This document shows, piece by piece, positions 2,593 to 7,530 of a stretch of DNA of 7,585 nucleotides. How positions within the stretch are numbered: position 1 is the first letter of the stretch; every line of letters begins with the position of its first letter. The DNA comes from Nitrospina sp. (GTDB lineage: Bacteria > Nitrospinota > Nitrospinia > Nitrospinales > VA-1), in contig JABJCF010000504.1 of assembly GCA_018665625.1 (NCBI GenBank), forward strand, positions 1 through 7,585, in the 5' to 3' direction. The position numbers were made by a program, and so were the translations under genes. The notes under the pieces are model-generated. The model had not been told where the DNA came from. It searched no databases and saw nothing but the letters and a program-made list of their open reading frames with translations.

Positions 2593-2691
2593 TTTTAAGA
2601 ATTCCAGGTTTTACCACCCCCGGTTATCCTTTAGTTTGAAAGCTTCCCCGTCCGAATATCAGATTGCGAGAAATTAAATTTGGGTATTAAT

Positions 2692-2718
2692 TGATAGAAA
2701 TTCTCATTATTGATATCA
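2692..2718. promoter_or_regulatory. Candidate overlapping Fur boxes upstream of the bfr promoter
   Basis: TGATAGAAATTCTCA (2692-2706) matches 11/14 and TCATTATTGATATCA (2704-2718) matches 10/14 of the 7-1-7 Fur consensus. The second overlaps a perfect palindrome ATTGATATCAAT (2709-2720). The pair ends about 26 bases before the -35 element of the bfr promoter, so bound Fur would not cover the promoter. That position fits an activator role or a looping partner of the box at 2578 better than simple repression. Activation is inferred from position only. Confidence 0.55.
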
Positions 2719-2744
2719 ATCGTAAGTCATTATAAATAAGAGGC

Positions 2745-2772
2745 TTGACAGTTTTTTGTTGTCTGATAGATT
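2745..2772 (+). promoter_or_regulatory. Sigma-70-type promoter of bfr
   Basis: A perfect -35 TTGACA (2745-2750) is followed after 16 bases by TAGATT (2767-2772). TGA directly precedes the hexamer and gives an extended -10 (TGn). Transcription would begin near 2780, leaving a leader of about 45 bases before the bfr start at 2825. The promoter overlaps an in-frame TTG at 2756 that could be misread as the gene start; the promoter and the strong RBS at 2814-2820 argue against that start. Confidence 0.62.
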
Positions 2773-2824
2773 AGCAATTAGAAGGCTGATTTTAACGGTT
2801 GGAAAAATTAATTGGAGGAGAAAT

Positions 2825-3304
2825 ATGAAGGGCGATAAAGCGGTGCTCAGTGCCTTGAACGATGTATTGATGGCAGAATTGACTGCGATCAATATTTATT
2901 ATATCCACTATAAAATGCAGGAAGATTGGGGCTATGAAAAAATTGCCAGTCATTCACGAGAAGAATCCATGGGTGAAATGAAGCACGCAGATCAAATGAT
3001 CGAGAGGATTCTTTTTCTCGATGGTGTTCCTGACATGCAAAAATACGACACCGTGCTGGTTGGCAACAGTGTGGAAGCTCAATTGAAAAACCAATTAAAA
3101 ATCGAGTTGGCTCATGTTGCACGTTTAAGGAAACATATTCGCACCTGCCACGACAAAAGCGATTTTGGAAGCAAAGAAATTCTCGATAAAATTTTGGAAG
3201 AGACAGAAGATAGTGTTGACTGGATTGAAACCCAGTTCAACCGCATCAAGGATATCGGCATCAAGAATTATATGATGGAGAATATGAGTAAAGATAATAA
3301 CTGA
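2825..3304 (+). CDS. bfr: Bacterioferritin subunit with incomplete ferroxidase centre
   Basis: A 159-residue bacterioferritin, the usual family length. Bfr assembles into a 24-subunit haem-containing cytosolic shell that oxidises and stores iron. The start is ATG 2825 (MKGDKAVLSALND, as in other Bfr proteins), with GGAGGAG at 2814-2820. A longer in-frame reading from TTG 2756 would overlap the promoter and is rejected. Visible residues: ferroxidase ligands E18, E51, H54 and E94; haem axial ligand M52 in GEMKHAD; then IERILFLDGVP and DWIET. Position 127, expected Glu, is T and position 130, expected His, is S (EETEDSVDWIE; no gap is needed because D132-W133 align). The Fe-bridging Glu and one Fe ligand are therefore missing. 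From family knowledge, two-subunit Bfr proteins exist in which one subunit has degenerate ferroxidase residues; a partner would then be encoded elsewhere. It is preceded by candidate Fur boxes and followed by a strong terminator. Confidence 0.95.
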   Translation: MKGDKAVLSALNDVLMAELTAINIYYIHYKMQEDWGYEKIASHSREESMGEMKHADQMIERILFLDGVPDMQKYDTVLVGNSVEAQLKNQLKIELAHVARLRKHIRTCHDKSDFGSKEILDKILEETEDSVDWIETQFNRIKDIGIKNYMMENMSKDNN

Positions 3305-3327
3305 AAAAATAAATTTGTCTTATCGGC

Positions 3328-3368
3328 CCCTTTCCACCTGTTGCCTGGGTGGAAAGGGTTTTTATTTT
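3328..3368 (+). terminator. Rho-independent terminator of bfr, meeting the fur 3' end
   Basis: A perfect 11-bp stem CCCTTTCCACC (3328-3338) / GGTGGAAAGGG (3348-3358) with a 9-base loop is followed by TTTTTATTTTT. The fur stop codon on the other strand (3362-3364) lies inside this T-tract, so the two convergent genes share the structure. Read from fur, the same hairpin is followed after about 15 bases by a T-rich run, so it may work in both directions, though more weakly for fur. Confidence 0.9.
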
Positions 3369-3796
3369 TGAGTTTTATTGCATTCCCTGCAAATACCGAA
3401 CAATTCCATCCGATGACTTTTTAATGTAAAGCCGTGACGATCACAAACTTCCAGCTGATATTTTTCAATTAGCGGGTGTTCGAACTCAATGGTTCTTCCG
3501 CAGATTTTACAAATCAAATGATCGTGGTGGCGAACCTGGAAGAGACGTTCATAGGTAGTTTTTTCGTTAAAGGTGTGAATATCAGCGAGGCCAGAGTCCA
3601 CCAGCAATTTCATGGTTCGATACAATGTCGCTATTCCAATCGTGGGATCCTGAGCTTTAATTATAATATGCAAATCTTCAATGTGGATGTGGCCATCCTG
3701 ACCGAGAAAAATTTCTAGGATCAATTTTCTTTGCGGTGTCCACCGCAGGTTCCTCTCTCTCAGAAAATCTTTAAAAATATCGAATTCGTTGACCAT
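3362..3796 (-). CDS. fur: Ferric uptake regulator Fur
   Basis: A 144-residue Fur-family repressor that binds DNA when loaded with Fe(II). The N-terminal winged helix includes WTPQRKLILEIF (19-30) and the recognition-helix region IGIATLYRTMKLLVDSGL (53-70). The dimerisation domain has HHDHLIC (90-96) and IEFEHPLIE, typical of true Fur. Two CxxC pairs, C96/C99 and C136/C139, form the structural zinc site. E83, H90/H91 and H93 fit the regulatory metal site, and H121 and H128 further ligands. ATG at 3796 is preceded by an in-frame stop within a few codons, so the start is fixed. There is no clear Shine-Dalgarno. A 12/14 Fur box lies 10 bases upstream of the start, indicating autoregulation. The gene is convergent with bfr and divergent from the ferredoxin. 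Zur or PerR are less likely, because the neighbours are iron genes and the HHDHLIC signature is Fur-like. Confidence 0.95.
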   Translation of the reverse strand: MVNEFDIFKDFLRERNLRWTPQRKLILEIFLGQDGHIHIEDLHIIIKAQDPTIGIATLYRTMKLLVDSGLADIHTFNEKTTYERLFQVRHHDHLICKICGRTIEFEHPLIEKYQLEVCDRHGFTLKSHRMELFGICRECNKTQK

Positions 3797-3999: not shown

Positions 4000-4245
4000 A
4001 TGGCTAGCAAAATAAAAATATGCACAGGAGCAGGGTGCAAAGCCTGGAACTCAGAATATATGGCGAGCAAGTTAAAGCAATTACAAGGTAGTGATGATGT
4101 GTGCCTGGTTCCTTGCATGAAGCAATGTGGAGGCGGTGCTTCCGTGCGATTAAAAAATCGCGGGAAAGTTTTGAAATTGCGCGAGACGGAAGATGTGGCT
4201 TATTTGCTGAATTCAAATTCAGGCGCTTTAGCAGCTGTTTGCTAG
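4000..4245 (+). CDS. Thioredoxin-like [2Fe-2S] ferredoxin, iron-regulated
   Basis: A small 81-residue protein of the thioredoxin-fold [2Fe-2S] ferredoxin type, related to the NuoE/HoxE cluster domain. The cysteine pattern is CTGAGC (C8, C13), then CLVPCMKQC (C35, C39, C43). C8, C13, C39 and C43 match the C-x4-C ... C-x3-C ligands, while C35 and C81 (the last residue) are extra. The usual AP or GP after the last Cys is replaced by GGGAS. There is no signal peptide, so it is cytosolic. ATG 4000 follows AAGGAGAA (3987-3994) at good spacing. It has its own strong promoter with a Fur box over the start site and is divergent from fur. Inference: it supplies electrons when iron is scarce, for example to release iron from Bfr as Bfd does, although it is not a Bfd homologue. 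The exact partner is unknown. Confidence 0.82.
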   Translation: MASKIKICTGAGCKAWNSEYMASKLKQLQGSDDVCLVPCMKQCGGGASVRLKNRGKVLKLRETEDVAYLLNSNSGALAAVC

Positions 4246-5368: not shown

Positions 5369-5429
5369 ATTAGGTTTTTTCTTTAGGTTATATTTGTTTT
5401 TTTTATTAAGAGGAGAAAGGAGTAGCTCA

Positions 5430-6689
5430 ATGAAACAAAAGTTTACATTGTTTGCTTTGATCAGTCTGGTGGCATTTTTCTGGAGCGTGCCAGCATTTTC
5501 AGCAAGCGTAGATGAGTTAAAACGGCAGATAGATATACTGTCTGACGAGATGGATAATTTAAAAGATCGCAGTGGCAGTTCCGGTAGCAAACAACACGAC
5601 CGAATAAGAATTCATGGTTATGGAGAGGTGCATTTGCAAGCACCAACTTCAGGTGCTAATCAAGAAACAACTATTGATGCGCATCGATTTGTTATTGGTA
5701 TCCATGCTTTATTGGCAGATTGGATTCATTTAAATGCTGAAATCGATTTCGAAGGTGCCGCACAGGAACTGGAAATGGAATTTGCTCAATTGGATTTCCT
5801 GTTAACCGATTCATTCAATGTCAGAGCCGGTGTTATGTTGGCACCTGTAGGGCTCTTAAATGAATTCCATGAGCCGACTCTATTCTGGACAACGGAACGT
5901 CCTGAGTTGCAAGTTCGAATGATCCCTAGTAGTTGGAGTGTGGGTGGGGCTGGAATTTATGGCACGCCAATGGAAGGTGTAAATTATCGCCTTTATGTCG
6001 TGAACTCCTTGCAATCTGTTTCGGATAACTCTGCAACAAATGGAAGAGGAAATGGAAACGGCGGAAATAATAACGCATTCAGTAGTAATGGTATTCGCGA
6101 TGGCCGTGGCTCGCAGATCAATCAGCGCATAGCAGAAGACTTTGCTGTAACGGGAAGGATTGAACTCACCAAGCTCTATCCAGGTCTGCAGGTTGGATTT
6201 TCCACTTTCTTGGGAGATACCACGCAGGGTTACATTGATGCAGGCGGGTTTATTACTTTGGTTGAAGCGGACATTAAATATCGCAAGGAATGGTTTGAAA
6301 TGAACTCAAGCATTGTGAGTACCCATATCGCTGATACCGGCGCAATCAATAACTTTTGTAGCATTGCGGGGAATGCTTGTGGCGGTGGCGTGGCAAAACA
6401 CCAATATGGTGTCAATGTTCAAGCAGGAGTTCATCTCCCGCAATTGATGGGTTGGAAAACCACGCATGATATCGTTCCTCATTTCATGTATGAACGTGTA
6501 AGAACTCAGGACGATGTGGTGGATGGTTTTGCTCCAAGTCTCAACCGCAACAGGAACGCGATTTTTACCTTTGGTGTTGCTTACCTGCCGATCCCAGACG
6601 TATCTATCAAGGCAGACCACACGCACACTCGACTTGAGAATGACACGGAGACAAATGAATTTAGAATGTCGGTTTCGTACATGTACTAG
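5430..6689 (+). CDS. Iron-regulated outer-membrane porin with N-terminal coiled coil
   Basis: A 419-residue exported beta-barrel protein. The start is ATG 5430, with AAAGGAG at 5416-5422; an in-frame TTG at 5394 would put 12 extra residues before the signal peptide and is rejected. Residues 1-24/25 are a signal peptide (MKQKFTLFALISLVAFF... ending PAFSA). Residues 26-47 (VDELKRQIDILSDEMDNLKD) form a short coiled coil, common at the N-terminus of trimeric porins that anchor to peptidoglycan. From about 57 there are alternating beta strands, ending FRMSVSYMY with a C-terminal Tyr as in BamA substrates. The pattern is loosely like OprO/OprP-type porins. A Gly/Asn-rich stretch near 203-222 is probably a surface loop. 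The only two cysteines, C310 and C317, are close enough to form a disulfide. Substrate is unknown; Fur sites suggest an iron-related solute. A terminator follows. Confidence 0.82.
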   Translation: MKQKFTLFALISLVAFFWSVPAFSASVDELKRQIDILSDEMDNLKDRSGSSGSKQHDRIRIHGYGEVHLQAPTSGANQETTIDAHRFVIGIHALLADWIHLNAEIDFEGAAQELEMEFAQLDFLLTDSFNVRAGVMLAPVGLLNEFHEPTLFWTTERPELQVRMIPSSWSVGGAGIYGTPMEGVNYRLYVVNSLQSVSDNSATNGRGNGNGGNNNAFSSNGIRDGRGSQINQRIAEDFAVTGRIELTKLYPGLQVGFSTFLGDTTQGYIDAGGFITLVEADIKYRKEWFEMNSSIVSTHIADTGAINNFCSIAGNACGGGVAKHQYGVNVQAGVHLPQLMGWKTTHDIVPHFMYERVRTQDDVVDGFAPSLNRNRNAIFTFGVAYLPIPDVSIKADHTHTRLENDTETNEFRMSVSYMY

Positions 6690-6954: not shown

Positions 6955-7530
6955 ATGAATTTAAAAACTCCAAATTTTCTTCCAGCTATTTTCGTAATAG
7001 CCATTAGCCTGAATGCTTTTTTGCCCAATGCTTTTTCTGAAGAAGAAAAGGTTTTAGATGTTCAGGTTTACCTGACCAAAAAGCAGGCCTTTGAAATTGC
7101 TTTTCCGGGTGCTGACAAGGTCGAGCGAGAAAAAAAGTGGCTGACCGAAGAACAAAAAAAAGTCATTAGTGAATTATGTCTGCAGAAGATCGATGCAAAC
7201 CGCATCAACTTTTATGTGGGTAGGAAGGGCGATAATATTTTGGGCTATGCGGTCTTTGACCATGAAATTGGAAAGTCTTTCCCCATTACTTTCATGACGG
7301 TGCTCAATGTAGATGGAACCGTTCGCGACGTTGAGATTCTCGTATACCGGGAGCCTCGCGGTTGGGAGGTTCGCTATCCTTCTTTTATGGATCAGTTCAC
7401 GGGTCGAGATGCCGAGTCAGATTATCGAACGGTCAACTCAATCACCGGTGCCACCTTATCGGTTCGCGCTTTAAGAAAAGGTGTTTCCCGAGCCACCGCC
7501 TTCTATAAAGTCCTATATCTCAATCAATAA
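6955..7530 (+). CDS. Exported FMN-binding domain protein (probable covalent flavoprotein)
   Basis: A 191-residue protein with a hydrophobic signal peptide (1-28, ending PNAFS) and no lipobox Cys at the cleavage site, so probably periplasmic. The second half fits the FMN-binding domain found in NqrC and RnfG: FDHEIGKSFPITFMTVLNVDGTVRDVEILVYREPRGWEVR (101-140), then NSITGATLSVRALRKGV (161-177). T167 in ITGAT is the likely site of phosphoester-linked FMN, added by the flavinyltransferase ApbE. The Asp usual at the start of this motif is Asn here (N161). It is much shorter than an Nqr/Rnf subunit set and none of the other subunits are nearby, so it is probably a stand-alone electron carrier or reductase component. 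The RBS is weak and no clear promoter or Fur box is seen; it follows the porin terminator and a repeat. Substrate is unknown; heme, quinone or ferric iron partners are possible. Confidence 0.82.
   Translation: MNLKTPNFLPAIFVIAISLNAFLPNAFSEEEKVLDVQVYLTKKQAFEIAFPGADKVEREKKWLTEEQKKVISELCLQKIDANRINFYVGRKGDNILGYAVFDHEIGKSFPITFMTVLNVDGTVRDVEILVYREPRGWEVRYPSFMDQFTGRDAESDYRTVNSITGATLSVRALRKGVSRATAFYKVLYLNQ

Follow-up and report, generated by a model that had tools for sequence, protein, structure and literature searches.

In the bacterioferritin (Bfr) of Escherichia coli, E127 and H130 belong to a symmetric, higher-coordination diiron centre that stays in place as a cofactor, while the electrons for mineralisation are drawn from iron held at an inner-surface site formed by H46 and D50 (excerpts of PMC7762939 and PMC4771812). 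According to the same excerpts the H46A and D50A variants are left with the fast phase of oxidation and are inhibited in mineralisation, and the E18A, E51A and E94A variants lose fast oxidation (PMC4771812, in excerpt). In the Bfrs of Pseudomonas aeruginosa and B. viridis His130 is described as a gate that can swing out, whereupon the centre becomes connected with the cavity (PMC4771812 and PMC3467274, in excerpt). The bis-Met haem of P. aeruginosa Bfr is reported to show a Soret band near 418 nm and a further band at 740 nm. Iron is deposited differently in the E. coli and P. aeruginosa proteins with near-identical ligands, the reason for which has been described as unresolved (PMC7762939). 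In the ferritin FtnA of E. coli, site A is made up of E17, H53 and the bridging E50, site B has E94, and Y24 lies nearby (PMC7762939, in excerpt). P. aeruginosa FtnA (PaFtnA) has a ferroxidase active site and accumulates Fe(III), as stated in the available part of PMC8945002.

Bfrs composed of two kinds of subunit have also been described. In Magnetospirillum gryphiswaldense MSR-1 the Bfr2 subunit shows changes of the type E18Q, H54A and H131M and a partner gene is present (PMC6529640, in excerpt), and SoBfr2 of Shewanella has Val94 and Asp51, likewise with a partner gene present (PMC12120770). SoBfr1 is the ferroxidase-competent, haem-free subunit of the solved Shewanella hetero-Bfr, and its ligands were assigned as E18, E51, H54 and E94 (PMC12120770). 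Mutants of its His46, His131 and Glu128 were reported to stain for iron without noticeable change, a sentence at odds, with respect to E128 and H131, with another passage of the same section by which all SoBfr1 variants except H46A were clearly important (PMC12120770). The authors align E128 of SoBfr1 with E127 but find it pointing out and dispensable (PMC12120770).

The window, that is the whole stretch of 7,585 nucleotides analysed here, holds a bacterioferritin gene at 2825..3304 on the forward strand, which was recognised from the listing of open reading frames and by profile searches and codes for 159 aa from an ATG start. The whole protein matched TIGR00754 with 172.8 bits against a curated cut-off of 125.55, and its PF00210 score in the profile search was 100.5 bits. 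An AlphaFold2 model of the monomer (mean pLDDT 94.9) contained five helices, namely the four-helix fold and a short fifth helix, and matched solved chains with TM scores of 0.95–0.97 by query length; all 50 chains listed were Bfr or hetero-Bfr. The residue register was taken from gap-free alignments with Azotobacter Bfr (1sof/2fkz) and with 5zur, together with a multiple alignment that included E. coli Bfr. This placed E18, Y25, E51, M52, H54, E94, T127, E128, D129, S130, D132 and W133 in the window Bfr, with E127 replaced by T and H130 by S and no gap needed. Four of the six ligands of the symmetric diiron centre (E18, E51, H54, E94, E127 and H130) are thus kept, those absent being E127 and H130. 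The inner-surface iron site of E. coli Bfr is likewise missing, with E in place of H46 and G in place of D50, and Met52, the haem-ligating residue, is present, from which haem binding is predicted. The alignments confirmed the initial annotation, which had read the haem ligand and E18, E51, H54 and E94 as kept and E127 and H130 as replaced by T and S, and they bore out its view that D132-W133 fix the ungapped register. Judged by profile, modelled fold and predicted haem ligand the protein is a Bfr, one that appears to be without the E. coli-type centre.

The closest genome locus, L001 in a Nitrospinaceae metagenome-assembled genome (MAG; G001), codes for a protein 98% identical to the window Bfr, and 19 of the 24 related loci found were from Nitrospinota. 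Among the best 120 of 7,988 scored protein matches, position 127 was T in 119 and S in one, position 130 was S in all, E18, Y25, M52, H54 and E94 were present in 120 out of 120, and E51 was present in 119, the one other row having a gap. A 127-row MAFFT alignment contained 45 distinct Nitrospinota rows, matches below 90 bits being left out. Of these rows, 39 combined M52 with T/S127 and S/A130, one was canonical (E127/H130 with M52, in G074), four were L52 paralogues and one was a 97-aa fragment. The more distant proteins of G020 and G077 carry E127/H130, and both lie under the 90-bit limit of this count.

The type is defined by residues 52, 127 and 130, and uniformity at these positions results from selection of the rows; at positions 18, 25, 51, 54 and 94 it does not. 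In the 39 Nitrospinota genes of the type, E18, Y25, E47, E51, H54, E94, E128, D132 and W133 were invariant, residue 127 was T in 36 and S in 3, and residue 130 was S in 36 and A in 3. The exchange of S and A suggests that a small residue at 130, and not a ligand, is under conservation. A tree was built without residues 127-130 by a quick method with no bootstrap, and several of its long branches were flagged; in it the window and 43 Nitrospinota rows formed a single group of 44 with an SH-aLRT value of 99, and G074 fell outside. At least 3 changes are required to explain S/A130 on this tree because paralogues with other residues sit inside the 44-row group. In the G046 assembly (contig C25, locus L216) a bfr of the same type looks split into frames. 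Decay in one genome was rejected as the cause of T127/S130, as the residues recur in the best 120 matches and in the 39 Nitrospinota genes. Since those matches have T/S127 with S130, and since the 39 genes keep E18, Y25, E51, H54 and E94, the comparison of sequences indicates that the T127/S130 Bfr is a conserved type and not a product of decay.

In order to judge how unusual the two replacements are, 79 Pseudomonadota sequences were read at the same positions. The sources of these rows were loci L020-L024 with the genomes that contain them, the 30 best-scoring loci and 40 places hand-picked down the list; the sample was drawn from 208 of 398 genomes with a match and is not random, and the counts cover Nitrospinota and Pseudomonadota only. 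Thr127 was found in 21 of the 79 sequences, 16 of them haem-type Bfrs with M52 and 5 haem-free subunits of tandem pairs, and His130 was present in all 21. Ser or Ala at 130 occurred in 0 of the 79, and His130 in 76. Thr127 by itself was accordingly rejected as a remarkable trait, and, as it is common outside Nitrospinota, what is unusual is that His130 is lost. Thr also occupies position 127 in SoBfr1 (9iig_A) and the aligned place in PaFtnA (3r2h). With T127, SoBfr1 and PaFtnA as precedents, neither replacement, taken singly, is a sign of a dead subunit as far as sequence comparison and analogy reach; as a precedent SoBfr1 appears good, not clean. What stands out is the combination of Met52 with a centre apparently cut to four ligands, often in the sole PF00210 protein found in the genome.

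Two-subunit Bfrs in which a haem subunit and a ferroxidase subunit divide the labour (PMC6529640, in excerpt; PMC12120770) make it conceivable that the window Bfr is a haem subunit with a degenerate ferroxidase centre, and that it forms a mixed cage with a competent Bfr whose gene lies elsewhere. The initial annotation had held that such a partner is needed, to be sought as a second bfr with intact E127/H130. PF00210 was scanned for at E 0.001 in 19 related genomes and then in 77 Nitrospinota genomes, which include the 19 and are mostly MAGs that may be incomplete. In 24 of the 77 there was no PF00210 match at all. In 29 of the 39 genomes that carry the type gene no other PF00210 match was obtained, and the need for a partner is therefore not supported. 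The 29 include G029 (3,921,641 bases; stated 3.9 Mb) and G053 (3,310,067 bases; 3.3 Mb), which consist of essentially one contig each. No second match was obtained in the MAG G001 with its 98% identical protein. The search for a second bfr with intact E127/H130, run in the 39 genomes of relatives, most of them MAGs, yielded none, nor did these genomes show another full-length Bfr or Ftn whose six-ligand site is intact. Encapsulin was found in 0 of the 77 genomes. Rubrerythrin-family matches were present in 59 of the 77, two each in G029 and G053, and such proteins could contribute to peroxide-driven iron oxidation.

The other 10 of the 39 genomes had additional PF00210 matches, which were short Bfr-like proteins, Dps-like proteins, L52 paralogues and weak matches. 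Short Bfr-like proteins of 139-152 aa with both ExxH motifs were present in G011, G018, G040 and G063 (loci L045, L046, L085 and L086), the last of these genomes being also nearly one contig. They scored 51-62 bits with TIGR00754, which is below the cut-off, and were judged unlikely as partners, as by length they resemble 12-meric mini-bacterioferritins. One structure, 9qq4 (139 aa), is a weak sequence match to the window Bfr and presumably stems from the paper on those proteins. Mini-bacterioferritins are newly described in the available part of PMC13168243. Dps-like matches were seen in G026 and G045, where Dps models matched below their own cut-offs, and, by eye, in G012. The weak matches were at contig C72 of G008, which also matches rubrerythrin, and at a second place on contig C9 of G026; a weak rubrerythrin-like match was noted in G011 too. 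A fragment in G026 belongs to the same type of Bfr.

Bfr paralogues without Met52, which might speak for co-assembly in some Nitrospinota, consist of a tandem copy in G024, a further copy in G018 and two in tandem in G033. Paralogues without Met52 and with changed ferroxidase ligands were located at 1456-2013 of L049, at 1672-2930 of L087 (two in tandem) and at 932-1747 of L068. The four Nitrospinota paralogues not only lack M52 but are altered at ferroxidase positions of their own, and would hence not supply the missing site. The haem subunits of the five Pseudomonadota tandem pairs read furthermore alter E18, E51, H54 or E94 in 5 of 5 cases, one of them merely by E51D, whereas such an alteration was seen in 0 of the 39 Nitrospinota type genes and is not present in the window Bfr. 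Taken with the 29 genomes in which the type gene stands by itself, this makes a dependence on a partner subunit improbable.

We lean towards a different reading, in which a haem Bfr that keeps E18, E51, H54 and E94 and is without E127 and H130 likely works alone as a ferritin-type flow-through ferroxidase and is not a dead subunit. Site A (E18/E51/H54) would take up Fe(II), and site B would hold it more weakly; there E51 and E94 would be joined by T127, S130 and water, which stand in for E127 and H130. O2 or H2O2 would oxidise the iron at this labile diiron site and Fe(III) would exit directly into the cavity, as the protein has no His130, the residue that in other Bfrs is able to shut the centre off from the cavity. 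The cofactor cycle of E. coli Bfr, with its stable bridged centre and H46/D50 inner-surface iron and a fast phase that does not recover after a first round, would not operate. Loss of the bridge, the gate and the inner-surface site, together with retention of the ferritin-type ligands, argues for labile-site oxidation and direct exit. For release, Bfd or a different small Fe-S protein would pass electrons to the haem on M52, which would reduce the mineral. Fer2_BFD domains were found in 63 of the 77 Nitrospinota genomes, some within larger proteins, and a single short example was read in each of G029 and G053. A role of haem in iron release is consistent with the sequence and plausible, and possible at this stage. 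The literature search returned no test in which E127 and H130 had been replaced jointly.

The ferritin-type ligand set was read from the 127-row MAFFT alignment, in which E17, Y24, E50, H53 and E94 of FtnA align with E18, Y25, E51, H54 and E94 of the window Bfr, and Q127 and E130 of FtnA with T127 and S130. This residue match rests on the multiple alignment, as BLAST of the window Bfr against FtnA gave a weak, off-register hit of 20.8 bits. The FtnA site C glutamates E49, E126, E129 and E130 align with G50, E126, D129 and S130, meaning that two of the four acids are lost. Judging from these positions, most bacterial ferritins have a richer site B, because E130, the second Glu ligand in FtnA, is Ser in the window Bfr. 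The protein would be ferritin-like in its proposed working and not a member of the Ftn family.

The poorer site B bears on the main rival, which is that the protein has no real ferroxidase activity, that Fe(II) enters the cage and is oxidised slowly on the core or with H2O2, and that site A holds a single iron while the haem serves for release or redox buffering. E51 and E94 are indeed the only protein ligands of site B here, variants of E. coli Bfr with a broken centre still oxidise all added Fe(II), slowly (PMC4771812, in excerpt), and in SoBfr2, whose centre is changed, a single weak peak was seen close to E18 (PMC12120770). E94 and Y25, which belong to site B and to electron transfer, are nevertheless invariant in 39 of 39 genes of the type, and E94 would be needless at a mononuclear site. 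The haem subunits of tandem pairs do lose such residues. A slow or single-iron centre is thus regarded as unlikely.

A rearranged diiron centre with canonical function, in which a neighbouring carboxylate (E46, E47, E126 or E128) moves in as a bridge or ligand of the second iron, seems very improbable. In its favour, position 46 is E in 32 of the 39 genes of the type, and E47 and E128 are invariant; position 46 is however S or K in the remaining 7, and E47 and E128 are present in E. coli Bfr together with E127 and H130 and hence are not linked to the loss of these two. Residues 126 and 128 would moreover face away from 127 if they lie on a helix. The suggestion in the initial annotation that E126 and E128 might partly compensate for T127 is unlikely, as E128 is invariant in a 26-row alignment that includes E. 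coli Bfr and the SoBfr1 Glu128 mutant stained for iron without noticeable change (PMC12120770).

The surroundings of the gene hint at possible control by iron. A ribosome-binding site (GGAGG) at 2814..2818 (+) and a candidate promoter at 2745..2772 (+), composed of TTGACA (2745-2750) and TAGATT (2767-2772) with a spacer of 16, were noted by eye. A Fur-box-like palindromic operator at 2691..2719 (+), likely iron-responsive, was located by a search with a pattern taken from the window itself. When up to 2 mismatches were allowed, the core TTGATAN4TTCTCATT, a pattern derived from the very loci on which it was scored, was present in the 250-base upstream regions of 21 out of 33 bfr genes of Nitrospinota, the window included, and was missing from 12; it occurred in 0.5% of mononucleotide-shuffled upstream regions. 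In 20 of the 21 cases the element was sited 122-145 bases ahead of the start of the bfr match. The upstream element is, on sequence grounds, likely a Fur-family operator. A convergent gene for a Fur-family regulator (PF01475, 111.9 bits) at 3362..3796 (-) is a candidate controller of bfr, and in 22 of 32 related loci a Fur-family gene was found on the opposite strand no more than 3 kb from bfr. Where bfr and fur converge, a hairpin (CCCTTTCCACC...GGTGGAAAGGG) with a T tract was seen by eye at 3325-3366 and is a probable two-way terminator.

An 81-aa Cys protein (CxGxxCxAW...CxxxC) is encoded at 4000..4245 (+) and is a candidate small Fe-S electron carrier. Its Cys pattern was conserved in a 27-row alignment, with one row truncated, and in 29 of the 32 related loci the gene was no more than 3 kb away from bfr. 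Assignment as a known ferredoxin was rejected, as no Pfam family scored over its cut-off and PDB sequences gave no support. That the protein is a small Fe-S carrier linked to iron release is possible. A gene for an M24 peptidase, then bfr, a Fur-family gene on the opposite strand, the gene for the 81-aa Cys protein and DUF2325 follow one another in an order that is widely kept between loci; M24 was within 3 kb of bfr in 31 of the 32 loci and DUF2325 in 26, with some loci stopping at contig edges. Further along the window, an FMN-binding domain protein, distantly RnfG-like by profile searches, is encoded at 6955-7530 (+), and the ORF upstream of it at 5394-6689 is unclassified and by eye porin-like.

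It is attractive to infer a dead subunit from two lost ligands, and that inference is corrected here. A natural Bfr without E127, the His130 gate and the inner-surface site offers a direct test of the difference between the E. coli and P. aeruginosa Bfrs. If it shows fast oxidation and mineralisation, E127 and H130 serve in holding iron and not in oxidising it. Nitrospinota include marine nitrite oxidisers, and the likely main iron store of these organisms would thereby be identified. To the fuller picture, a homomeric, gate-less haem ferritin of Nitrospinota that has given up the E. coli cofactor machinery (E127, H130 and H46/D50) together, uses a flow-through centre with haem for release and is the only ferritin-family iron store of many members, we assign an even chance.

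Set against canonical Bfrs (E. coli Bfr and P. aeruginosa BfrB), the window Bfr has the fold, the length, M52 and E18, E51, H54 and E94 in common, as well as the Y25 and W133 of E. coli Bfr, but differs in T127/S130 in place of E127/H130, in E46/G50 in place of H46/D50 and in a Met where E. coli has Tyr58. The Thr127/His130 Bfrs of Pseudomonadota (Achromobacter 5zur and L020-L023) share Thr127, M52 (16 of 21) and often E46 or G50; unlike the window Bfr with S130, they keep His130 in 21 of 21 sampled. The degenerate haem subunits Bfr2 of M. gryphiswaldense and SoBfr2 combine Met52 with altered ferroxidase residues, as does the window Bfr. SoBfr1, in contrast, is haem-free, has no Met52, keeps H46 and D50 and was tested in a hetero-cage; it has one extra residue between T127 and His131, so that its E128 can be aligned with E127. 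PaFtnA (3r2h) likewise has no haem Met52 and one extra residue before a His. E. coli FtnA has the same four metal ligands and the tyrosine at aligned positions, and differs from the window Bfr in having no haem, in Gln127/Glu130 and in its site C.
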